Part shown: positions 4,861 through 62,983 of the stretch, in pieces
Position numbering within the stretch: the stretch's first letter is position 1
Layout: each line of letters starts with the position of its first letter
Source: Chitinophaga niabensis
GTDB taxonomy: Bacteria; Bacteroidota; Bacteroidia; Chitinophagales; Chitinophagaceae
DNA: 64,000 nucleotides
Direction of reading: 5' to 3'
NCBI GenBank assembly: GCA_017849435.1
Contig: JAFIGY010000002.1
Location: 728,587 to 792,586 of the forward strand
The notes under the pieces: model-generated
The model's input: the letters and a program-made list of their open reading frames with translations, nothing else
The model's database searches: none
What the model was told of the DNA's origin: nothing
Program-made: the position numbers and the translations under genes

Positions 4861-5490
4861 ATGGATATCCTGGAGAAACTTGCGTGGCGCTATGCCACCA
4901 AAAAGTTCGATCCTGAGAGACAATTAGATGAGCGGCAGCTGGAAAGGATCCTCCGGGCCACCAACCTCTCCGCTTCTTCATACGGTCTCCAGCCCTACAA
5001 AGTGATCGTAGTAAAAGATAAAACCGTAAAGGAAAAGCTGAAAGCGGCTTCCTGGAACCAGTCGCAGATCACAGATGCATCGCACCTGATCGTATTTGCC
5101 CGGTATGAAGAAGTGAATGGGCGACACGTGGAAGACTATATTGAAAATATTGCCGGTACCCGCAAAGTAGACCGCACGCAGTTGAATGGATTTGAAAACA
5201 TGATGAAAGGGAAACTGGATGCACTGGATGCGGACACTAAAGCGAACTGGTCGGCCAAACAAGCCTACCTCGCGCTGGGTACCCTGCTGACGGCAAGCGC
5301 AGCAGAAGGCATTGATGCTTGCCCGATGGAAGGATTCGACGCAGCGGCTTATGACGAAATACTAGGGCTGAAGGAAAGGGGGCTGCGCACGGTTGTAATT
5401 GCAGCGGTTGGTTTTCGCGCAGCGGATGATGGCATGCAGCATGCGAAGAAAGTGAGGAAATCCCTTGAAGATTTTGTGGAACTGGTGTAA
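4861..5490 (+). CDS. NAD(P)H-dependent nitroreductase (NfsB-like)
   Basis: A 209-residue flavin (FMN) oxidoreductase of the nitroreductase superfamily, expected to reduce quinones or nitro compounds with NAD(P)H. Family marks are the N-terminal WRYATKKFDPERQL, the FMN-contacting RATNLSASSYGLQPYKVIVV segment, SAKQAYLALGTLLTASAAEGIDACPMEGFD, and the end GLRTVVIAAVGFRA. Length fits the NfsB group. It is last in the pirin-YceI operon, followed by a strong terminator at 5510-5542. The physiological substrate is unknown. Confidence 0.9.
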   Translation: MDILEKLAWRYATKKFDPERQLDERQLERILRATNLSASSYGLQPYKVIVVKDKTVKEKLKAASWNQSQITDASHLIVFARYEEVNGRHVEDYIENIAGTRKVDRTQLNGFENMMKGKLDALDADTKANWSAKQAYLALGTLLTASAAEGIDACPMEGFDAAAYDEILGLKERGLRTVVIAAVGFRAADDGMQHAKKVRKSLEDFVELV

Positions 5491-5509
5491 AGTGTGTAGG
5501 GGTTAAGGT

Positions 5510-5542
5510 AAAACCGGATGATATGTTTCATCCGGTTTTTTT
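5510..5542 (+). terminator. Rho-independent terminator of the pirin-YceI-nitroreductase operon
   Basis: Perfect 11-bp stem AAAACCGGATG / CATCCGGTTTT around an 8-nt loop, running into a T tract. It begins 20 bases after the nitroreductase stop. Confidence 0.9.
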
Positions 5543-5595
5543 GTTATTTTTAAGACCGCTTTCGATCAAACAATCACCTCATAAAAAATTAAACC

Positions 5596-6006
5596 ATGAA
5601 AAGATCTGCATCTGCCAATTGGAAAGGTACCGGCAAAGAAGGAAAAGGCACCGTTTCAACCCAAACAGGCATACTCAATAATACACCTTATTCCTACCTG
5701 AGCCGCTTTGAAGACGGTCCCGGTACTAATCCCGAAGAACTGATAGCAGCCGCTCACGCGGGTTGCTTCACCATGAAGCTCAGCTTTGTGATCTCCGGTG
5801 CAGGGTTCACTCCCGGTAACATTGACACAAAAGCGACCGTTACGCTGGAGAATGGCGCTATCACCAGCAGCCATCTGGAAGTAACGGCCAGCGTACCCGG
5901 ACTGGATGCTGCGAAGTTCGCGGAGTTTGCAAAAGATGCGGAGGAAAATTGCCCCATCTCCAAGCTGTTTAACACTAAGATCACGATGGACGCAAAGCTG
6001 GTGTAA
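5596..6006 (+). CDS. OsmC/Ohr family peroxiredoxin
   Basis: OsmC-type peroxidases reduce organic hydroperoxides with a two-cysteine centre. The 136-residue protein starts with the OsmC signature (KRSASANWKGTGKEGKGTVSTQ) and carries both catalytic cysteines: Cys57 in AAHAGCFTM and Cys119 in EENCPISK. The residue order matches OsmC (SalE/OsmC branch) rather than Ohr. It is flanked by strong terminators on both sides (5510-5542 and 6029-6073), so it is a monocistronic unit within a redox-stress neighbourhood. Confidence 0.93.
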   Translation: MKRSASANWKGTGKEGKGTVSTQTGILNNTPYSYLSRFEDGPGTNPEELIAAAHAGCFTMKLSFVISGAGFTPGNIDTKATVTLENGAITSSHLEVTASVPGLDAAKFAEFAKDAEENCPISKLFNTKITMDAKLV

Positions 6007-6028
6007 GCGAACGGAAAGATATCATATG

Positions 6029-6073
6029 CAAAGGCCGGACGAGCAGATCAAACCTGCGTCCGGCCTTTGTTTT
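6029..6073 (+). terminator. Rho-independent terminator after osmC
   Basis: A 13-bp perfect stem (CAAAGGCCGGACG with its complement) closes a 15-nt loop and is followed by TTTT. Confidence 0.85.
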
Positions 6074-6173
6074 GGAGAAAATATTTGTCCATCTTTTTAA
6101 CCGATCTGTCCATTGATAAAACCTGAGGATGGATGGAAATTTGCTGTAGAAAATAACTCAGGAGGAAATAATT

Positions 6174-6887
6174 ATGAAAACAGTAGTTCACCGGGGAAAT
6201 ACCCGCGGGTTTGCGGATCATGGATGGTTGCAGTCGTTTCATACTTTCAGCTTCTCAGGCTATTACAACCCTGACCGCATTCATTTCGGCGCATTGCGCG
6301 TATTGAATGACGATACTGTCAAAGGCGGTATGGGGTTCGGCGCGCATCCGCATGATAATATGGAAATCGTCAGCATTCCGTTAAGCGGTGCATTGGAGCA
6401 CAAAGACAATACCGGTCGGCATAAGATCATCAATCAACACGATGTGCAGATCATGAGTGCCGGCACAGGCATACAACATTCGGAATTCAATGCATCCAGA
6501 ACAGAACCTGTAAAATTCCTGCAGATATGGCTCTTCCCCAGGTTGAAGGACATCCCGCCCCGGTACGATCAGAAAACATTCGATCCTGCCGGCCGGAATA
6601 ACCAATTGCAGGTAGTAGTAGCGCCGGAAGAAAGCGATGCAACACTCTTCATCAATCAGGATGCATGGTTCTCGCTCGGCAAATTCGATAAGGGGCAATC
6701 CATAGCATATGCTTCCAAAAAAGCCGGTAACGGTGCGTACCTGTTTGTGTTGAACGGGAAAGTGAAAGTAGGAGAGGAAATCCTCGAAACCCGCGACGCT
6801 ATCGGGGTTACGGATTACAGTACATTGCAGGTGAGCATGCTTGAAGATGCGGAATTCCTGCTGATGGATGTGCCCATGCATGTCTGA
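6174..6887 (+). CDS. Pirin family protein (YhhW-like)
   Basis: A second pirin, 237 residues, of the shorter YhhW/quercetinase type. The N-terminal cupin keeps the full Fe ligand set: His58 and His60 in GAHPHDNMEIVS, then His102 and Glu104 in GTGIQHSEF. The sequence FADHGWLQSFHTFSFSGYYNP is typical of this branch. A strong ribosome site (AGGAGG, around 6161-6166) precedes the ATG at 6174, which is unusual for this phylum and settles the start. It appears to be monocistronic. The activity (quercetin dioxygenase or redox sensor) is not decided by sequence. Confidence 0.9.
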   Translation: MKTVVHRGNTRGFADHGWLQSFHTFSFSGYYNPDRIHFGALRVLNDDTVKGGMGFGAHPHDNMEIVSIPLSGALEHKDNTGRHKIINQHDVQIMSAGTGIQHSEFNASRTEPVKFLQIWLFPRLKDIPPRYDQKTFDPAGRNNQLQVVVAPEESDATLFINQDAWFSLGKFDKGQSIAYASKKAGNGAYLFVLNGKVKVGEEILETRDAIGVTDYSTLQVSMLEDAEFLLMDVPMHV

Positions 6888-7090
6888 TAACGTAGAAAGA
6901 TCGTATTCAAAATAAGCGTAAACTATGCGGCTGTTGGGGTGGATAAATTTCCCGCTGTAGGATGTACCCCGGAATAGAAAAGAATCGTAAATTAGAAGTG
7001 AGGATGAGCATATTGACACATAAGCATGGAATGTATGATAGATAAGGCCCTGACCAGCTATCGTCATCATTTACCTTAAATCAATATATC

Positions 7091-7468
7091 ATGGAAGTAC
7101 CCACACAGTCCACCGACCTGCAGGCACAGATTCTTGCCTGGAAGGGTGAGGTTGAGAATGTACGCACTGATTTACGTGCTATGCGCCGCAGGTTGGAAGA
7201 AATGGCCGGAATGCGTCAGGCCAACCAGGAAAGAATGGTTGAAATAGAACACTTCCAGAATCAGTTCATCAGACAGCTGGAAGTAGCAGATGAGATGTTC
7301 CACGATCTGAAACAGTCGGCAAAAACAATGAGCAACGGTCGCCAGCCAATTATTCACCACGACAGGCCGGTAGATGATTACCCGGTTTTACAGGACCGAA
7401 TGCAGGTGTTCCACAAACTACATGCTGAATTGAAAGGAGATTTTAACCGGTTTGAATCATACCGTTAA
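7091..7468 (+). CDS. Hypothetical coiled-coil protein
   Basis: A 125-residue protein with no recognised domain. Residues 10-75 are charged and heptad-like (VENVRTDLRAMRRRLEEMAG, RMVEIEHFQNQFIRQLEVADEMFHDLK), predicting a coiled coil. The C-terminal part is His/Asp-rich (IIHHDRPVDDYPV), followed by a second helix. There is no signal peptide or membrane segment, so it is probably cytosolic. Its stop codon overlaps the stop of the convergent PAS-protein gene. The function is unknown. Confidence 0.6.
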   Translation: MEVPTQSTDLQAQILAWKGEVENVRTDLRAMRRRLEEMAGMRQANQERMVEIEHFQNQFIRQLEVADEMFHDLKQSAKTMSNGRQPIIHHDRPVDDYPVLQDRMQVFHKLHAELKGDFNRFESYR

Positions 7469-8661
7469 GCGGAGCTTTTTTCATTCATCTCTTTGAGCTT
7501 ATCCTGTATCTTATGAAGCATGGCATCCAACTCTGCGCTGCTCTCCTGCAGCATGCCCAGCAGTTGTTTGTTCAGGGAAGGTGTGTTTTTTTCCAGATCC
7601 AGCAGAGACACGATCCCGAGAATGGCAGATACAGGCTTGCGGATATCATGTGAATTGATGCGGGCTATATCCTGCAATACTCCGTTCTGATGCAGCAGTT
7701 GCCGTGTTTGCCGGGTATTGCTGTCAATATCCTGGATAGCGCCGATCATTCGCACGGGTTTCTTTTGTTCATCATAGATGATGTGTCCACGGTCACGTAC
7801 ATATTTGTAGGTACCGTCACCGCAGAGGAAGCGGTATTCTCCGTTCCAGTTCATTTCCCCGTTCCACATCGCCTGTTCAATAGAGGCGGTAACACCGGCA
7901 ATATCTCCGGGATGTACTTTGGTGCGCCACCAGCTGCGGCTGCCGTTCACTTCCTCATCCTTATATCCGAACAGGGAAACGGGGCCGTGATTGCTGGTAA
8001 GCCGGTTGGTAACAATATCCCAGTAATAGATATAATCCTGCGTAACCTTTGCCAGCAGCTCATATCGGGTGCCGATATCTTTTGCCATGATCGTGGATCG
8101 TATTTCCATATCCACATCTATCGCCATTACAATGCGGGCTTCCCGGCCATGGTATTGTGTGCTGTGGGAATAGATCTCGGCAGAGAACACCTCGCCGTTC
8201 TTTTTGCGGTGTTGCCAGATGCCCCGATAGGCAACATGTTGCTTGGTATTTTTGACGTCAGCGAGTACCTGCAGGATCGTGGAAGGATCGCGGATGTCCA
8301 GTATCTTCATTTGCATGAACTCCTCGTGGCTATACCCATACTTGACTACCGCCGCGTTATTGACCGCGAGGAAACGCAGGGTATCCCAGTCGTAAATCCA
8401 CATCGGTACCGGATGCTCATAAAAAAGCTGCCGGTATTGTTCAGAATAACGTGTATTCCTGGAAAGATCACCCCTGACCAGCACGTAGATAAGCACAGCC
8501 GAACATGCCATGAAAACGGCATGCAGCAGATACTGTAATAATGCCGGATTAACCTGGGGGAAACGTGCTGCGAGTGATGTCCATATAAGATTGTAACAGC
8601 CCAGCCATACCAACCCGAACAGGAGATAAAGACTTGCTGCTTTGAGAGCAGTATGGCCCAT
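7465..8661 (-). CDS. Membrane PAS protein ending in a histidine-kinase DHp domain, no ATPase
   Basis: A 398-residue protein with two N-terminal membrane helices (about residues 8-30 and 40-62) and two PAS domains (about 75-185 and 200-315; the second has the PAC-type ending YKYVRDRGHIIYDEQKKPVRMIGAIQDI). A helical segment follows with SHDIRKPVSAILGIVSLLDL, a typical phosphoacceptor H-box with His338. The protein then ends about 60 residues later in a coiled coil. There is no N-, G1- or G2-box, so no HATPase domain. It may be a naturally short sensor or phosphotransfer partner. It lies 51 bases downstream of the ferredoxin-reductase gene on the same strand and may be co-transcribed with it. 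Confidence 0.75.
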   Translation of the reverse strand: MGHTALKAASLYLLFGLVWLGCYNLIWTSLAARFPQVNPALLQYLLHAVFMACSAVLIYVLVRGDLSRNTRYSEQYRQLFYEHPVPMWIYDWDTLRFLAVNNAAVVKYGYSHEEFMQMKILDIRDPSTILQVLADVKNTKQHVAYRGIWQHRKKNGEVFSAEIYSHSTQYHGREARIVMAIDVDMEIRSTIMAKDIGTRYELLAKVTQDYIYYWDIVTNRLTSNHGPVSLFGYKDEEVNGSRSWWRTKVHPGDIAGVTASIEQAMWNGEMNWNGEYRFLCGDGTYKYVRDRGHIIYDEQKKPVRMIGAIQDIDSNTRQTRQLLHQNGVLQDIARINSHDIRKPVSAILGIVSLLDLEKNTPSLNKQLLGMLQESSAELDAMLHKIQDKLKEMNEKSSA

Positions 8662-57456: not shown

Positions 57457-58027
57457 ATGTTTCTCAAAAGTTCACTTTTTACAGGCTTTTTTTGCCTGGC
57501 AATAATTGTATCTTTTGCCCAAAAAAAACCTCCGCCTAACTGGCAATTACTCGACTGGCAGCAGGATGGCTTTCCCGGCACAAGCGTGGAAAAAGCGTAC
57601 AACACAATCCTTAAAAATAAAAAACCGAAAAAGAAAATTATTGTAGCAGTTATTGGCGATGGGCTTGACAGCACACATCCCGATTTGGCAGGTATACAAT
57701 GGACGAATACCAAAGAAATACCCGGCAATAATATTGATGACGATGGCAATTTCCAATGAAACCACAGAAGCCATCAGAGAATATGTTCGCCTGCGGCCAA
57801 AATTTGAAACAACTGATACGAATGCCGTTAAAGCCGATCCGCAATTTGCTTACTGGACGTCGGTTGTGGCTGATAAAGATGCGAGGCTTAAACAATTGTA
57901 TTCATTTAAAATGTATGCTCACTCCTTCAGTTTCTCCATGCTGCTAAGCTGGTTTCAATCTTCCTCTGATAGAATCCTTTCATCAGGAATTCACTTCTTG
58001 TTTTGTTGCAGGCTTATTTATGTTTAA
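57457..58027 (+). pseudogene. Broken S8 (subtilisin-like) peptidase gene
   Basis: The first frame (57457-57759) starts with a signal peptide (MFLKSSLFTGFFCLAIIVSFAQ), then NWQLLDWQQDGFPGTSVEKAYN and a subtilisin-like VAVIGDGLDSTHPDLAGIQWTNTKEIPGNNIDDDG. The usual catalytic Asp in the VIDSG motif is changed to Gly (VIGDG). It stops at NFQ. Further homology resumes one frame over (ETTEAIREYVRLRPKFETTD, about 57758-57900). The segment between DDDG and ETTEA is missing, and the protein then ends in unrelated sequence at 58027. His and Ser of the catalytic triad are absent, so it is a pseudogene. Confidence 0.75.
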
Positions 58028-58071
58028 GAGTAATTTTAATTGAGCAGATGCTGTTGGTCTTATTTTGAGGT

Positions 58072-58806
58072 TTACCCAAACAACCGCTCTGCTAATGCAT
58101 CTTTTCGCAAAGGAGACACTTCAATCTCTTTTCCATCCATTAATTCCAGTGTGCCTCCTTCTCCTTTGCGATATTTTACTACGTAATCCAGATTGACTAT
58201 CACGGAACGGCTTACCCGCAGGAAAGATGGCCCGCCGAGGGTATCTTCAAATTCTTTCAATGTTTTGGAAACAATAATTTTTTTGCTGCCAACAATATGA
58301 AATATACTGTAATTGCTCATGGCCTCTACATGGGTGATATTGGACCTGTTCACAAGATGTATTCCTTCCGCCGTGGGAAGCGCCAGGCGCCCATGCTCTT
58401 GTTGTTTGTTGTCTGTTGAACTTGTTTTTGGGGATTTTTGCTTTGCCGCTATCCTTTTGCTTAGCCGGTCAATGGCTTTTCGGAGTTCGTCTTCATCTAT
58501 CGGTTTCAGCAAATAATCTATGGCGCTGACCCGCAGCGCATCAAGTATATAAGTGTTATGAGCGGTTGTAAAAATGATTTCAAAACTAAATTCACCGAGG
58601 CGTTCAAGAAACTGAAAAGCATTCATACCGGGCATTTCAACATCGAGGAAAAGGATGTCCGGCTTATGGGTTCTGATTTCCTGCAACGCTTTTTCAGGGG
58701 AATTATAAATAACTTTAATATTTATGCTATCACGAAAATCGTGTAGCTTTTGCTCCAGCAGCCAACTGCTGCGGGGCTCATCATCAAGTATAGCAGCATT
58801 GATCAT
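58072..58806 (-). CDS. LytTR-family response regulator
   Basis: A 244-residue regulator with a receiver (AAILDDEP acidic pocket, phosphoacceptor Asp55 in ILFLDVEMPG, KPID switch end). Its C-terminal LytTR DNA-binding domain has LPTAEGIHLVNRSNITHVEAMSNYSIFHIVGSKKIIVSKTLKEFEDTL and FLRVSRSVIVNLDYVVKYRKGEGG. It starts 9 bases after the RCC1 lipoprotein gene on the same strand, forming an operon. The TPR histidine kinase at 60867 is its likely partner. The 21-bp-spaced direct repeats upstream of the RCC1 and cytochrome genes are its likely binding sites. Confidence 0.92.
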   Translation of the reverse strand: MINAAILDDEPRSSWLLEQKLHDFRDSINIKVIYNSPEKALQEIRTHKPDILFLDVEMPGMNAFQFLERLGEFSFEIIFTTAHNTYILDALRVSAIDYLLKPIDEDELRKAIDRLSKRIAAKQKSPKTSSTDNKQQEHGRLALPTAEGIHLVNRSNITHVEAMSNYSIFHIVGSKKIIVSKTLKEFEDTLGGPSFLRVSRSVIVNLDYVVKYRKGEGGTLELMDGKEIEVSPLRKDALAERLFG

Positions 58807-58815
58807 GGCCTTGCG

Positions 58816-59952
58816 CTACGGCGTTTTTATTTTTGTAAAGGTAACTGTATTTCCCCCAACAGCAATAACACTGTTGTCACCAAATGCTCCCTGGTAATTT
58901 TGCCCCGCTGCCCAAAGCGTACCATCTTTTTTTAGAACAAAACTATGCGAACCACCGGCAGATATTGCCACGGCGTTGTCAGCCACTTGTACCCAGGATG
59001 TGCTGTTGCTGGAGCTCCCCTTACCTAATTCCCCCGAATCATTTTTTCCGGTTGCCCACACGGTGCCATCCTGCTTTAGTATCAGGCTATGATGCTCCCC
59101 GGCTGATACAGCGGCAACCTGACTGGCCACCTGTGCCCACGAACTGACGTGTGTTGTAGAGCCGGTGCCTAAGAGGTCGCCGTCCCCGATGCCCCAAAGT
59201 GTGCCGTCTTTTTTAAGAATAAAACTATGAGACATTCCTGATGTTACAGACGCGGCATTATCTCCTACTTTTACCCAGGTAGTGCTACTTGTAGTACCAT
59301 TGCCCAACTCCAATCCGGCAGCCCAAACAGAGCCGTCCGATTTTAATAAAAAGGCATTGCTTACCGCTGTAGCTGCAGACGTTGCACCATTTGCCACTGT
59401 TTTCCATACAGAGTCAATCTTATTAATGGAGCCATTACCAAATTGCCCGTACCGGTTATTTCCAGTGGCTGCAACTTCTCCGGCTTTATTGATCATAAAG
59501 CTGTATCCGTGGCCCGCAGACGCAGACATGGTTGCTACATTGTTTGCCACGCTTACCCAGTTAGAATTGCCTTTAGTACTATTATTACCGAACTGCCCGG
59601 CAAAGTTAGAGCCTGCAGCCCACAGTGTTCCATCCTTTTTAAGCATAAGGCTGTGTGGAGGATAAGCTCCGACTTTTGTACTGACATCTGCAACATTATC
59701 AGCTACTTTCGTCCATGCAGGCTTGGCAATCTCCGTCCCATCACCCAACTGGCCGTGCAAATTGTTTCCGGCAACCCAAAGCGTTCCATCCGTTTTTAAC
59801 AGGAAGCTATATCCACTTCCTGCTATAATTTTTGGAGTAGCAGTTTCCGGAGGGTTGGTAATTCCGCCATCATTGTTTCCGCCGCCTTTACTACATGCGG
59901 CAAGGGTTATGGTCAGTAATAGCAGTTGAAAAACTTGTTTTAGCTGTTTCAT
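58816..59952 (-). CDS. RCC1-repeat (regulator-of-chromosome-condensation-like) lipoprotein
   Basis: A 378-residue secreted beta-propeller protein. A lipoprotein signal (MKQLKQVFQLLLLTITLAACSKGG; Cys20) is followed by about seven RCC1-like repeats with the pattern HSxxLKxDGTLWAxGxNxxGQxGxGT, for example GYSFLLKTDGTLWVAGNNLHGQLGDGT and HSLMLKKDGTLWAAGSNFAGQFGNNS. The repeats suggest a 7-bladed propeller that binds proteins at the envelope. A direct-repeat operator pair and -7 box lie just upstream. The response regulator gene follows in the operon. Confidence 0.9.
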   Translation of the reverse strand: MKQLKQVFQLLLLTITLAACSKGGGNNDGGITNPPETATPKIIAGSGYSFLLKTDGTLWVAGNNLHGQLGDGTEIAKPAWTKVADNVADVSTKVGAYPPHSLMLKKDGTLWAAGSNFAGQFGNNSTKGNSNWVSVANNVATMSASAGHGYSFMINKAGEVAATGNNRYGQFGNGSINKIDSVWKTVANGATSAATAVSNAFLLKSDGSVWAAGLELGNGTTSSTTWVKVGDNAASVTSGMSHSFILKKDGTLWGIGDGDLLGTGSTTHVSSWAQVASQVAAVSAGEHHSLILKQDGTVWATGKNDSGELGKGSSSNSTSWVQVADNAVAISAGGSHSFVLKKDGTLWAAGQNYQGAFGDNSVIAVGGNTVTFTKIKTP

Positions 59953-59978
59953 GACTTGATACGTTTATTTGTGTAAAC

Positions 59979-60047
59979 CGAAAATAGCCAGACCTAAGCT
60001 TTGTGTATATGCAGATGAGCGAACCGGGTATTCTGATGCGCAAATCA
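59979..60047 (-). promoter_or_regulatory. Promoter/LytTR operator 1 (RCC1 operon)
   Basis: Minus-strand -7-like box TATTTTCG (59979-59986, one mismatch). Upstream on that strand are two direct repeats, CGGTTCGCTCA (60016-60026) and TGATTTGCGCA (60037-60047), exactly 21 bp apart. The proximal repeat begins 30 bp from the box. It matches operator 2 upstream of the cytochrome gene in both repeat sequence and spacing. Confidence 0.6.
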
Positions 60048-60082
60048 CCTGTGTAAATAAGGGAGTTTTATTCGCCAATGTT

Positions 60083-60685
60083 TTACATTTTATCTGGCGA
60101 AATTGCACTTGGGACGATATTTTTAACCGGTTTAATACTTTTCAAATAAGAAAAAATGGCGTGGATCTCATCGTCTGTCAGTGCTTTAAAATTCATCCAG
60201 GGCATCGGTGGTAATAAAGTCCGGCCGTCATCAAGTCCTTTAAATTTTCCTTCGGTGAGCGCCTTTTTAAATTGTTTCTCTGTCCAGTTGCCGATACCGG
60301 TCTCATCGGGTGTTAAATTTCCTGCAAAGGAAATACCCCAGGGGCCTGCAGAAGCCGTGAGGTCTGGATAAAACATCGGAAAACCCTCCTCCTTGATTAA
60401 TTTGCTGTCAAGCTTTACCAAAGGTCTGTTGGAGGGATAGCCTGACAACATTAAGTCAGGAATGATTTCCGGGCCTTGTGCCCCCATTTTTTTGGGAGAA
60501 TGACAATCGTTACAACCTATTATGGTTACAAGATGTTGTCCCAGTTTTATAACATCTTCCTGTTTGGGTTTGCCGGTTGTAGCACTGTTGTCTGGTTTCT
60601 TTTCATTCTTGTTTGAGCAGGAATAAAAAGTCAGGATTAAAGAAACAGTGCTAATCGATGTAATAAATAATAAAATCTTCTTCAT
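60083..60685 (-). CDS. c-type cytochrome lipoprotein
   Basis: A 200-residue cytochrome c. The lipoprotein signal (MKKILLFITSISTVSLILTFYSCSNKN; Cys in YSCSN) places it on a membrane outside the cytoplasm. A single heme motif CNDCH lies in VTIIGCNDCHSPKK, with Met ligand candidates downstream (LPPMPWMNFKALTDDEIHAIFSYLK resembles the class I end). It has the DGRTLLPPMPW region of diheme/SoxX-like relatives, but only one CXXCH is seen. It lies on the minus strand upstream of the RCC1 gene with its own operator. Confidence 0.85.
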   Translation of the reverse strand: MKKILLFITSISTVSLILTFYSCSNKNEKKPDNSATTGKPKQEDVIKLGQHLVTIIGCNDCHSPKKMGAQGPEIIPDLMLSGYPSNRPLVKLDSKLIKEEGFPMFYPDLTASAGPWGISFAGNLTPDETGIGNWTEKQFKKALTEGKFKGLDDGRTLLPPMPWMNFKALTDDEIHAIFSYLKSIKPVKNIVPSAISPDKM

Positions 60686-60740
60686 CTTGTTTGATTTTGA
60701 GTATTTGAAGAATATGTTTTATTGAGATAATCGTATAAGT

Positions 60741-60809
60741 CAAAGATAGCCAGGGTGGGGTACCCTGTTCGAGCCGACGAGCCAACCAGGTATTTCAACG
60801 CGTAAACCA
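60741..60809 (-). promoter_or_regulatory. Promoter/LytTR operator 2 (cytochrome c; may also serve the kinase)
   Basis: Minus-strand -7 box TATCTTTG (60741-60748). Upstream on that strand are direct repeats TGGTTGGCTCG (60778-60788) and TGGTTTACGCG (60799-60809), 21 bp apart, the first 30 bp from the box. The four half-sites of operators 1 and 2 share yGrTTnrCkCr. The kinase gene starts divergently at 60867. Confidence 0.6.
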
Positions 60810-60866
60810 CCTGAATGAATAAGGAAAACCCTTTGAAATTGATAGATCAACCGCTATTTTTGGGGA

Positions 60867-62873
60867 ATGCGTGTATCCTCTTTTAAAGAGATCTCCCTTA
60901 TAGTCTTTGCCATATCGCTGATCCAGGTTGCCAGCGGGCAAAAGTATGGACTGCGCGCAATAGATTCCATGGTGAAAAGCCTGGTAAAGGTAAAAGAAGA
61001 TACCAACAAAATAAAATTGATCTACAGAATCGGAGATGCCTATACTACCATCGACCCGGTAAAAAGCATGCAATATGCCCGTGACGGGCTGGCCAGATCT
61101 GAAAAGCTGAAATGGAATAAAGGCATGGCGGCATTTAATATGTCAATAGGTAACGTTTTATCTTATGCGGGGCGATATGATTCTTCCATTTATTATTACA
61201 ACCGGGCCTATACTATTAATACAAGTATCAATAACAGCGGGGGCATTATCAGTGCATTGCTGAATATCGGTTCAGCGTACCAGGATAAGGGCAATTATAA
61301 TAAAGCCGTTGAATATTTATTCAGAATAATACCCATTGCGGAAAAAGCAAATGATTATTACAATCTTTCCATTGCTTCCCACAATCTTTCCGAACTATAC
61401 TACCTGATGGGCAATGCTGATAAAGCGCTGCATTACGCCGGGCAGGCGTTAGGGTATGCTGAAAAGGATGGCGATGCCCTGAATAAGGCGAATGCCACAG
61501 AGTCTTTCGCCAATGCATATTTATTGAGAAAAGATACGTTACAGGCAGTAGCATATTATGGAAAAGCATTCCTGTTATTTGAACAAATAAATGACCGGAA
61601 AGGTATGGCGACCATGTATTATAAATTGTCTGTAACGGCAAAGGACATCGTTAAAAAGACCGAATACGGGTTAAAGGCGCAAAAAATATGGGATGATATA
61701 GACCCTGCATTCAGCATTTCTATCGCAAATCTGGAGAACCTGGGATTTTTATTTTTAAACAGGGCGCAGGGCTCAACTGCGTACCGGCTTTTGGACTCAT
61801 CTGAAAAATATATCAGGCGGGCTAATGCGCTGAGCAAAGAAACCAACAATGCGGAATATATAGCAAGCACTACGAATATGCTCGCAAGGTTGCAGGAAGC
61901 TAAAGGCGACTATAAATCAGCGCTGATGAACCTGAAGGCGTCCACCCGGCTAAGGGATTCCCTCTACTCCTGGGAAACGCGCAGCAAAATTGCTGAACTG
62001 GAAACTAATTACCGGTTAAACAAACAGGCTACCGAATTTAAAGAAGAACAGGAGCTTGCCACGCTTCGTTTAAAACAACTGTGGGTGTATGTCATACTCT
62101 CGCTGGTTGTTATAGTAGGGATTTTCCTCTTCTTTTTAAACAAATACAGGATAAAACAGCTGAGGCTGCAACACGCAGTGCAACAACAGCAGGCCGAACG
62201 TAAAGAATGGGAATTAAAGATCCAGAACCAGTTAATGCAAAGTGAATTAAAAGCCATTCGTGCGCAGATGAACCCTCATTTTATTTTCAACGTTCTTAAT
62301 TCCATTGAAGCATTTATAGTGAACAATGAACCCAAGACCGCGGGCCGCCTGTTGCAAAAATTTGCCGCACTGTGCAGGTTGATGCTGGAGAACTCTACAC
62401 AACAATATGTTAATGCCGGACTGGAATGGCAGGCGTTAAAGCTTTATGCTGAACTGGAAGCGGCGCGGTTTAATTATCAGTTTTCTTATGAATTTGAGCA
62501 GGCGCCCAATACAAACCTTTCTGAATTGCTGATTCCCCCCATGATGGTACAGCCTATCGTTGAAAATGCAATTCATCATGGCTTACGCGATGCACCAGGA
62601 GCTGGCCTGCATTTTAAAGTAACCGCCATACACGAAGAGGATTTGCTCATCTTCATTACCGAAGATAACGGCAGGGGATTAAGACAAACAGAAGACGAAA
62701 AAAAGGCAGATGAATTTGTAAAGAAAAAATCTTTGGGGCTTGCATTGATAAAAGAAAGGATCGGCATTATCAATCAATCCATCGGGAAAGAAACGGCCGC
62801 ATTTTCATTGGAACCTAATATAACTGGCCGTGGCGCCGTTGCTATATTAAAGCTGCCGGTTTTAAATAATTGA
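60867..62873 (+). CDS. TPR-containing LytS-type sensor histidine kinase
   Basis: A 668-residue kinase. After a signal peptide (VIFAISLIQVASGQ region) come about six TPRs in the periplasm, with repeats such as GMAAFNMSIGNVLSYAGRYDSSIYYYNRAY and NKAVEYLFRIIPIAEKANDY. One membrane helix follows (LWVYVILSLVVIVGIFLFFLN). The cytosolic His_kinase core has His in AQMNPHFIFNVLNSIEAF, N-box VENAIHHGLRDAPG and GLALIKERIG. It is divergent from cytochrome c and close to operator 2. Its cognate LytTR regulator is at 58072. Confidence 0.93.
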   Translation: MRVSSFKEISLIVFAISLIQVASGQKYGLRAIDSMVKSLVKVKEDTNKIKLIYRIGDAYTTIDPVKSMQYARDGLARSEKLKWNKGMAAFNMSIGNVLSYAGRYDSSIYYYNRAYTINTSINNSGGIISALLNIGSAYQDKGNYNKAVEYLFRIIPIAEKANDYYNLSIASHNLSELYYLMGNADKALHYAGQALGYAEKDGDALNKANATESFANAYLLRKDTLQAVAYYGKAFLLFEQINDRKGMATMYYKLSVTAKDIVKKTEYGLKAQKIWDDIDPAFSISIANLENLGFLFLNRAQGSTAYRLLDSSEKYIRRANALSKETNNAEYIASTTNMLARLQEAKGDYKSALMNLKASTRLRDSLYSWETRSKIAELETNYRLNKQATEFKEEQELATLRLKQLWVYVILSLVVIVGIFLFFLNKYRIKQLRLQHAVQQQQAERKEWELKIQNQLMQSELKAIRAQMNPHFIFNVLNSIEAFIVNNEPKTAGRLLQKFAALCRLMLENSTQQYVNAGLEWQALKLYAELEAARFNYQFSYEFEQAPNTNLSELLIPPMMVQPIVENAIHHGLRDAPGAGLHFKVTAIHEEDLLIFITEDNGRGLRQTEDEKKADEFVKKKSLGLALIKERIGIINQSIGKETAAFSLEPNITGRGAVAILKLPVLNN

Positions 62874-62875
62874 CC

Positions 62876-62983
62876 TCCTCATTCACAGGAAAAAAGATTA
62901 TCGGGATTTTAAATGAACAGGAATCGGGCAAATCAGTAGTCGATATCTGTTGTGATCATGGCATAAGCCATGGCCAAAAGTAG
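62876..62983 (+). pseudogene. IS3-family transposase orfA remnant
   Basis: Right after the kinase stop, an in-frame segment (FTGKKIIGILNEQESGKSVVDICCDHGIS) closely resembles the N-terminal helix-turn-helix of IS3-family orfA (FTEEQIIxILNEQExGxxVxDICRxHGIS). It ends in a stop at 62981 after HGQK. The rest of the transposase and any orfB are not found, so only a scar remains. Confidence 0.6.

Follow-up and report, generated by a model that had tools for sequence, protein, structure and literature searches.

A LytTR two-component locus with two matching operators

The DNA studied here is a stretch of 64,000 nucleotides from Chitinophaga niabensis, hereafter the window, in which a LytTR response regulator, a histidine kinase with tetratricopeptide repeats (TPR), an RCC1-repeat lipoprotein and a c-type cytochrome are encoded side by side. 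An earlier reading made from the DNA letters alone (the sequence-only reading) had grouped these four genes into one regulatory locus, and open reading frame (ORF) calls together with Pfam searches indeed find all of them where it had placed them. They are listed below, with lipoprotein and signal-peptide assignments made by eye here and throughout.

58072-58806, minus strand: LytTR response regulator with receiver and LytTR DNA-binding domains (Pfam PF00072, 1.5e-18; PF04397, 9.4e-16)
58816-59952, minus strand: RCC1-repeat lipoprotein (cargo) of 378 amino acids with a lipobox (Pfam RCC1_2, 1.7e-39; WD40_RLD, 2.3e-46)
60083-60685, minus strand: c-type cytochrome with one CxxCH motif, lipoprotein (Pfam Cytochrom_C, 8.8e-07)
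60867-62873, plus strand, divergent: LytS-type histidine kinase (Pfam TPR_12, 8.9e-22; His_kinase, 1.2e-18)

As in LytS/LytTR two-component systems, the regulator combines a receiver domain, whose phosphoacceptor reads as Asp55, with a LytTR domain, and its partner kinase has a His_kinase domain with the H-box MNPHFIFN at residue 468. The kinase carries a signal peptide and, judged by hydropathy, one hydrophobic segment near residues 398-429, and its TPR region is predicted to be extracytoplasmic. The RCC1 and regulator genes lie 9-10 bp apart with an operator upstream of both, and because this intergenic gap is so short they may share one transcript. A single-sequence AlphaFold model of the RCC1 lipoprotein had a mean predicted local distance difference test score of 51.9, and no fold conclusion was drawn from it.

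The intergenic regions before the RCC1 and cytochrome genes align with 62 of 97 columns identical across the operator-promoter core. That these regions are homologous and that each holds two direct repeats exactly 21 bp apart had been noticed from the letters, and both observations are borne out by alignment and motif search, which give the following elements.

59979-59986, minus strand: -7 box TATTTTCG, RCC1 promoter (29 bp to the proximal half-site)
60016-60026, minus strand: proximal LytTR half-site CGGTTCGCTCA before RCC1 (motif search; within the match 60013-60047 of sequence model R1, described below)
60037-60047, minus strand: distal LytTR half-site TGATTTGCGCA before RCC1 (motif search; same R1 match)
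60741-60748, minus strand: -7 box TATCTTTG, cytochrome promoter (29 bp to the proximal half-site)
60778-60788, minus strand: proximal LytTR half-site TGGTTGGCTCG before the cytochrome (motif search; weak R1 score)
60799-60809, minus strand: distal LytTR half-site TGGTTTACGCG before the cytochrome (motif search)

Pairs of the half-site consensus yGrTTnrCkCr at 21 bp occur without mismatch exactly twice in the window, at these two places, compared with no exact pair and three pairs with up to two mismatches in 60 first-order Markov simulations of the window. Direct repeats in tandem, separated by ca. two turns of the helix and located upstream of a promoter, again match what is seen in LytS/LytTR systems. 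At both promoters, the end of the proximal half-site is exactly 29 bp from a TAnnTTyG box; the box and its equal distance in the two regions had been recognized in the sequence-only reading, which gave this distance as 30 bp. The repeat test within the window is partly circular because the consensus was derived from these very sites, and the non-circular tests are those made on orthologous loci and with a model free of window sequence.

The operator geometry recurs at orthologous loci

Orthologues of the regulator were collected with the 58072 protein as query. The closest among a first set of 148 genomes came from G057 (84% identity) and G081 (60%), and a second set of 394 genomes yielded G310 (94%) as well as G368, G282, G239 and G401 (58-62%); seven of these 394, including the window's own genome and G081, pass a threshold of 1e-65. 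A contig scan found relatives with 52-59% identity in Pedobacter, Parapedobacter and one metagenome-assembled genome labelled Chryseobacterium. In the family of G814, 60 of 399 genomes match the regulator at 1e-70 in 63 places, of which 40 were taken and three then dropped as the same records as L121, L123 and L124. This left 37 test loci (including L312, where the ORF caller did not recover the regulator). We speak of Chitinophagaceae-type and Sphingobacteriaceae-type loci on the basis of named relatives and of sequence that three loci have in common with named records.

Outside the window, seven operators at six loci, i.e., from G057, G081, Pedobacter helvus (two), P. foliorum, Parapedobacter defluvii and Pedobacter sp. 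Leaf41, had been chosen with the motif of the sequence-only reading at 21 bp, and they have in common TTCrCTCA twice, 21 bp apart. The 37 test loci were not used in defining this motif and were searched with the spacing left free between 9 and 60 bp, anywhere in 13 kb. With up to two mismatches, TTCRCTCA pairs at 21 bp numbered 43 in 26 of the 37 loci, compared to a mean of 1.51 pairs at the other spacings, where the maximum of nine falls at 42 bp (2x21) as expected from three tandem sites. Allowing one mismatch left 16 pairs in 15 loci at 21 bp (elsewhere mean 0.22, maximum 3), and exact pairs numbered six at 21 bp and zero at every other spacing. Five Markov controls with up to one mismatch gave pairs in 0-1 loci versus the 15 observed.

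The distance to the promoter is similarly constrained. For 60 pairs from 48 loci (11 earlier ones and the 37), a box matching TAnnTTTG in seven or eight of its eight positions lies at 29 bp in 19 cases and at 50 bp (29+21) in 18, and every other distance between 5 and 59 bp accounts for at most two pairs. Together with the spacing test, these distances support the view that the repeats behave as a LytTR operator, and the earlier suggestion that their layout is typical of LytTR binding held up. They also provide an explicit rule for target searches: TTCrCTCA, 21 bp from start to start, TTCrCTCA, 29 bp, TAnnTTTG. An origin of the repeats by chance or by nothing more than duplication is rejected on these two tests and on the Markov simulations. 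The window does hold a duplicated operator region, as it would if the two intergenic regions were similar through duplication only, without regulatory constraint; this is contradicted by the spacing found in the held-out loci and by the conservation of repeats and -7 spacing at distant loci with other downstream genes, and we consider it extremely improbable.

A conserved core with exchanged lipoprotein cargo

In the Chitinophagaceae-type loci L107, L108 and L240-L244, the kinase is divergent from the cargo and the regulator follows the cargo. Judged by the gene orders compared, the recurring unit is a kinase, an operator from which it diverges, one or more lipoproteins and then the regulator, and the RCC1 gene and the cytochrome do not form a conserved unit. 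Among 50 regulator loci including the window, each compared over the stretch fetched, the RCC1 lipoprotein is present in four (the window, G310, L274 and L275), a VYVAG lipoprotein in two and the cytochrome in the window alone, and no second locus with all four genes was found. The synteny of RCC1, cytochrome and LytTR genes that the sequence-only reading had offered as a check is therefore not seen, and a conserved four-gene block is ruled out by this comparison and the G310 locus. A wide distribution of the RCC1 lipoprotein in relatives was rejected as well, given that in the first 148 genomes only the window's own copy matched at 1e-30; G310 came from the later, larger genome set.

What varies is the cargo. 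It is the RCC1 lipoprotein in the window and G310, a lipoprotein with VYVAG/WKNG repeats (by these repeats probably a propeller) in G057 and also at a second locus of this genome on contig C9, collagen-like lipoproteins in G081 and G239, a protein with LYGPK-containing repeats in G282 and L121 (weaker in G368) and a small lipoprotein in G401. Several Sphingobacteriaceae-type loci hold lipoprotein arrays, small lipoproteins among them. Both the RCC1 and the VYVAG/WKNG lipoprotein are present in L275, and in L274 the RCC1 lipoprotein is directly downstream of an exact operator. Some cargo arrays include a lipoprotein of the GH5 cellulase family (L274 4846-5913 by Pfam; L120 3719-4774 and L285 7434 by BLAST).

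The non-catalytic (sensor) part of the kinase diverges faster than the catalytic part (73 vs 82% identity for G057, 51 vs 72% for G368), and the sensor seems to be exchangeable as well. In L121, L123, L288, L295, L302-L305, L307, L309 and L310, this type of regulator is found beside a larger kinase of 1034-1078 residues, with propeller-like repeats recognized by eye in L121 and L123. The larger kinase stands alongside a relative of the TPR kinase in L302 and L303 and elsewhere replaces it in the stretch fetched.

Probable transfer of the cassette and insertion of the cytochrome gene

The closest locus, that of G310, has a regulator and a kinase each 94% identical to those of the window, an RCC1 lipoprotein with 83% identity and a single operator without mismatches. 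DNA homology between the two is confined to the cassette: it starts at the stop codon of the regulator gene (58072) and ends at that of the kinase gene (62873; alignment to 62876), and the flanks are unrelated. RpoB of the two genomes is 83% identical over 513 residues. A cassette with 94% identity against 83% for RpoB, set between unrelated flanks, indicates at the sequence level that it was transferred horizontally as a unit. For G057 the relation is reversed, with 84% for the regulator and 75% for the kinase vs 93% for RpoB. Adjoining the cassette end in the window is a short ORF (57457-58030) that by eye looks like the start of a subtilase, stops early and resembles a decayed gene; a 100-amino-acid part of it had no Pfam match.

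No cytochrome gene is present in the 15-kb locus of G310, and the window differs by the following segment.

60065-60718, minus strand: cytochrome-bearing segment that the G310 locus lacks, with a copy of the operator region on either side

In a blastn comparison with L240, window positions 58072-60064 and 60719-62876 map to segments of L240 whose ends overlap at 7790-7898. Because the operator region of G310 (ca. 109 bp) matches both sides of the segment, the operator was duplicated along with insertion of the cytochrome. Of the two copies, the one before the cytochrome is closer to the G310 operator (83/97 identical) than the one before RCC1 (68/98), and it is also the positional counterpart of the single operator in G310.

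The cytochrome family beside other LytTR pairs

The sequence-only reading had gone further and proposed a purpose-built regulon in which the TPR kinase switches on the RCC1 propeller and, as its working partner, an electron carrier. The matched operators at both genes speak for this idea, and so do relatives of the cytochrome. These give matches in 69 of 148 genomes, many of them short, and score above 140 bits in 21 places in 19 genomes including the window's own. The 20 places outside the window were compared over 13 kb each. A LytTR gene and a kinase are present in 12 of these 20 loci against ca. 7% expected, a rough estimate from the 26 LytTR gene matches in the 5.0 Mb of this genome, and the LytTR regulators concerned are only 23-28% identical to the window's. 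The cytochrome was recognized by script in 15 of the 20 loci. In six genomes (L060-L065), repeats spaced at 21 bp precede it and are followed at 31 bp by a -7 box, L057 has a weaker pair and no -7 box, and 8 of the 15 loci showed no 21-bp repeats before the cytochrome. A divergent ZU5-like lipoprotein was recognized in four of the six loci L060-L065 and has 21-bp repeats before it in all four; at the corresponding position in L063 and L064, sites were seen in a motif search.

The coupling thus recurs: in six genomes, members of the cytochrome family lie downstream of repeats at 21 bp that belong to another LytTR pair. Judged by these arrangements, a lipoprotein and this type of cytochrome seem to have come together next to LytTR pairs on two or more occasions. 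It can now be tested why a single cytochrome family turns up repeatedly in the company of a LytTR pair and a lipoprotein. Against a purpose-built partnership, the G310 locus has the cassette and RCC1 yet lacks the cytochrome, 49 of the 50 regulator loci showed no relative of the cytochrome within the stretches fetched, and the cytochrome operator is the weaker of the two in model R1; on balance we regard such a partnership as possible yet rather doubtful. Beyond this, the divergent ZU5-like lipoprotein accompanies the cytochrome family in L057, L060-L063, L065 and L068, and a LytS-LytTR pair differing from the window's does so in L057, L060-L065 and L068.

Reach of the regulon in the genome

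Two sequence models were used for genome scans. R1 was built from the seven non-window operators and contains no window sequence, while R2, of the same type, was built with the window and C9 sites as well, which makes it circular for those three. Within the window, R1 ranks the RCC1 operator (60013-60047) first with an expect value (E) of 0.0025. Across the genome, it places the site of a regulator paralogue on contig C9 first (E 0.0055) and the RCC1 operator second, followed by an unrelated-looking place (E 0.57), and among 25 stretches that surround LytTR genes elsewhere in this genome, the C9 site is the only match. With R2, among the 150 of 1361 candidates scored, the two window sites and the C9 site fall below E 0.1 and the next place has E 0.65. 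A dedicated and local regulon is well supported by these scans; this part of the earlier claim stands on the R2 results, and the part that tied RCC1 and cytochrome into one set is not supported by the 50 loci, G310 and G057.

The C9 paralogue (L109, G000:C9:20000-34000, positions 5004-7456) could itself be the kind of regulator that mainly binds the window's repeats, alone or together with the window's own. It is 46-48% identical to the window regulator and orphan-looking. A search of the 14 kb around it revealed no kinase related to that of the window, two copies of TTCACTCA at 21 bp are next to it, and R1 scores its site above those of the window. Such operators nevertheless occur in 29 of 42 further loci of orthologues of the window regulator (26/37 and 3/5), and we consider it unlikely that another regulator is the main binder. 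A lipoprotein with VYVAG/WKNG repeats like the G057 cargo is located ca. 460 bp on from the C9 regulator with a short remnant-looking ORF between them, and the locus is possibly a split second cassette.

A motif-free repeat search at 24 other LytTR loci of this genome gave 20 overlapping matches (five loci) at 21 bp, eight at 20 bp and three at 22 bp, which is suggestive only. Direct repeats at 21 bp with other half-site sequences lie near -7-like boxes at L212 1267 (minus strand), L216 1222, L217 3544, L219 2861 and L223 400.

A probable mobile two-component cassette

We consider it highly probable that the locus represents a two-component cassette that moves horizontally. Most often, such a cassette consists of a kinase diverging from an operator and promoter that are followed by lipoprotein cargo and a LytTR regulator. 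The gene order, the operator and -7 geometry, the exchange of cargo, the insertion with operator duplication and the greater likeness of the cassette than of RpoB to G310 can all be read from the DNA compared, and signal, binding, activation, autoregulation and surface location would fit together as follows. An extracytoplasmic signal would act on the TPR region of the kinase, which would phosphorylate Asp55 of the regulator. The regulator would then bind head-to-tail to two (in relatives sometimes three) TTCrCTCA half-sites 21 bp apart on one face of the DNA and recruit RNA polymerase to the -7 box 29 bp downstream. This would switch on the surface lipoprotein and the regulator itself, i.e., create positive feedback. 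The core of kinase, operator geometry and regulator is conserved and the cargo exchangeable. The window cassette has captured a cytochrome gene with a second operator copy, and one switch may now drive both.

Several observations weigh against this interpretation. Many of the orthologous loci are phylogenetically clustered, and the counts given above are not independent. At the first eight orthologous loci, a pair with up to three mismatches was found in five, compared with a simulated mean of 0.82 and a maximum of four in 100 simulations. No TTCRCTCA pair with up to two mismatches was found in 11 of the 37 Sphingobacteriaceae-type loci or in two of five further Chitinophagaceae-type loci (L240 and L241); L240 nevertheless has an exact yGrTTnrCkCr pair, and in L241 the region between kinase and cargo holds no such pair even with four mismatches allowed. 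In several loci, the operator is located upstream of the regulator itself or of the (larger) kinase and not of the lipoprotein. R1 ranks the cytochrome operator only fifth in the window (5.7 bits, E 1.9) and gives the RCC1 operator no better than E 0.19 genome-wide, and the genome scans scored 150 of 299 (R1) and 150 of 1361 (R2) first-look candidates.

Comparison with known systems

By its anatomy, the locus would work as a LytTR activator. LytS/LytTR systems, such as those of AgrA, YpdB and BlpR/ComE, likewise combine a receiver-LytTR regulator with a LytS-type kinase and tandem direct repeats upstream of a promoter; unlike them, the window has a TPR sensor, a Bacteroidota -7 promoter and exchangeable lipoprotein cargo. 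AgrA dimers are reported to sit on two direct repeats upstream of AgrA promoters (PMC4227749).

LytTR regulatory systems (LRS) have repeats separated mostly by 12 and sometimes by 11 or 13 bp upstream of the promoter and are positively autoregulatory, with Bacteroides examples that include one with 11-bp repeats and an 11-bp spacer before TGTA-19 bp-TATCTTTG (PMC6193735). The repeat layout of the window agrees with this spacing just upstream of a promoter, and by gene position an operator ahead of the RCC1 and regulator genes would fit an LRS-like autoregulatory arrangement. The regulator of an LRS, however, has a membrane protein as its partner. With a histidine kinase and a receiver domain instead, the window locus is not an LRS. 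For the cargo, RCC1 repeats are common to the window lipoprotein and the RCC1/BLIP-II propeller group (PMC9218822), with the window protein being a lipoprotein. In the literature collection searched, no papers turned up on LytTR with Pedobacter or on LytTR with Chitinophaga and, judged by titles, none describing such a type of locus, and a mobile chassis with exchangeable lipoprotein cargo appears to be the new part.

Streptococcal Blp-type bacteriocin loci use a LytTR switch with strain-variable secreted cargo behind matching repeats. The cassettes described here likewise have variable cargo and common repeats, which would be recognized by one regulator, with the cargo presumably secreted; unlike in Blp-type loci, this cargo comprises a cytochrome in addition to lipoproteins and repeat proteins. 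No toxin family scored above its cut-off in Pfam scans of 24 cargo or neighbouring proteins (one weak RIP match lies below it), with no search made for pheromone or toxin/immunity genes. It is a speculative and quite improbable idea that the cassettes are a Bacteroidota counterpart of streptococcal LytTR bacteriocin/pheromone islands, i.e., a mobile sensor-operator-regulator chassis with interchangeable surface lipoproteins acting on neighbouring cells and a TPR sensor that reads lipoproteins or ligands. If it were true, the propellers, collagen-like proteins, glycosidase and cytochrome among the cargo would recognize or act on neighbouring cells, and the chassis would spread between genera. 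The cassettes present a case of a conserved, apparently mobile regulatory chassis with swapped lipoprotein cargo.

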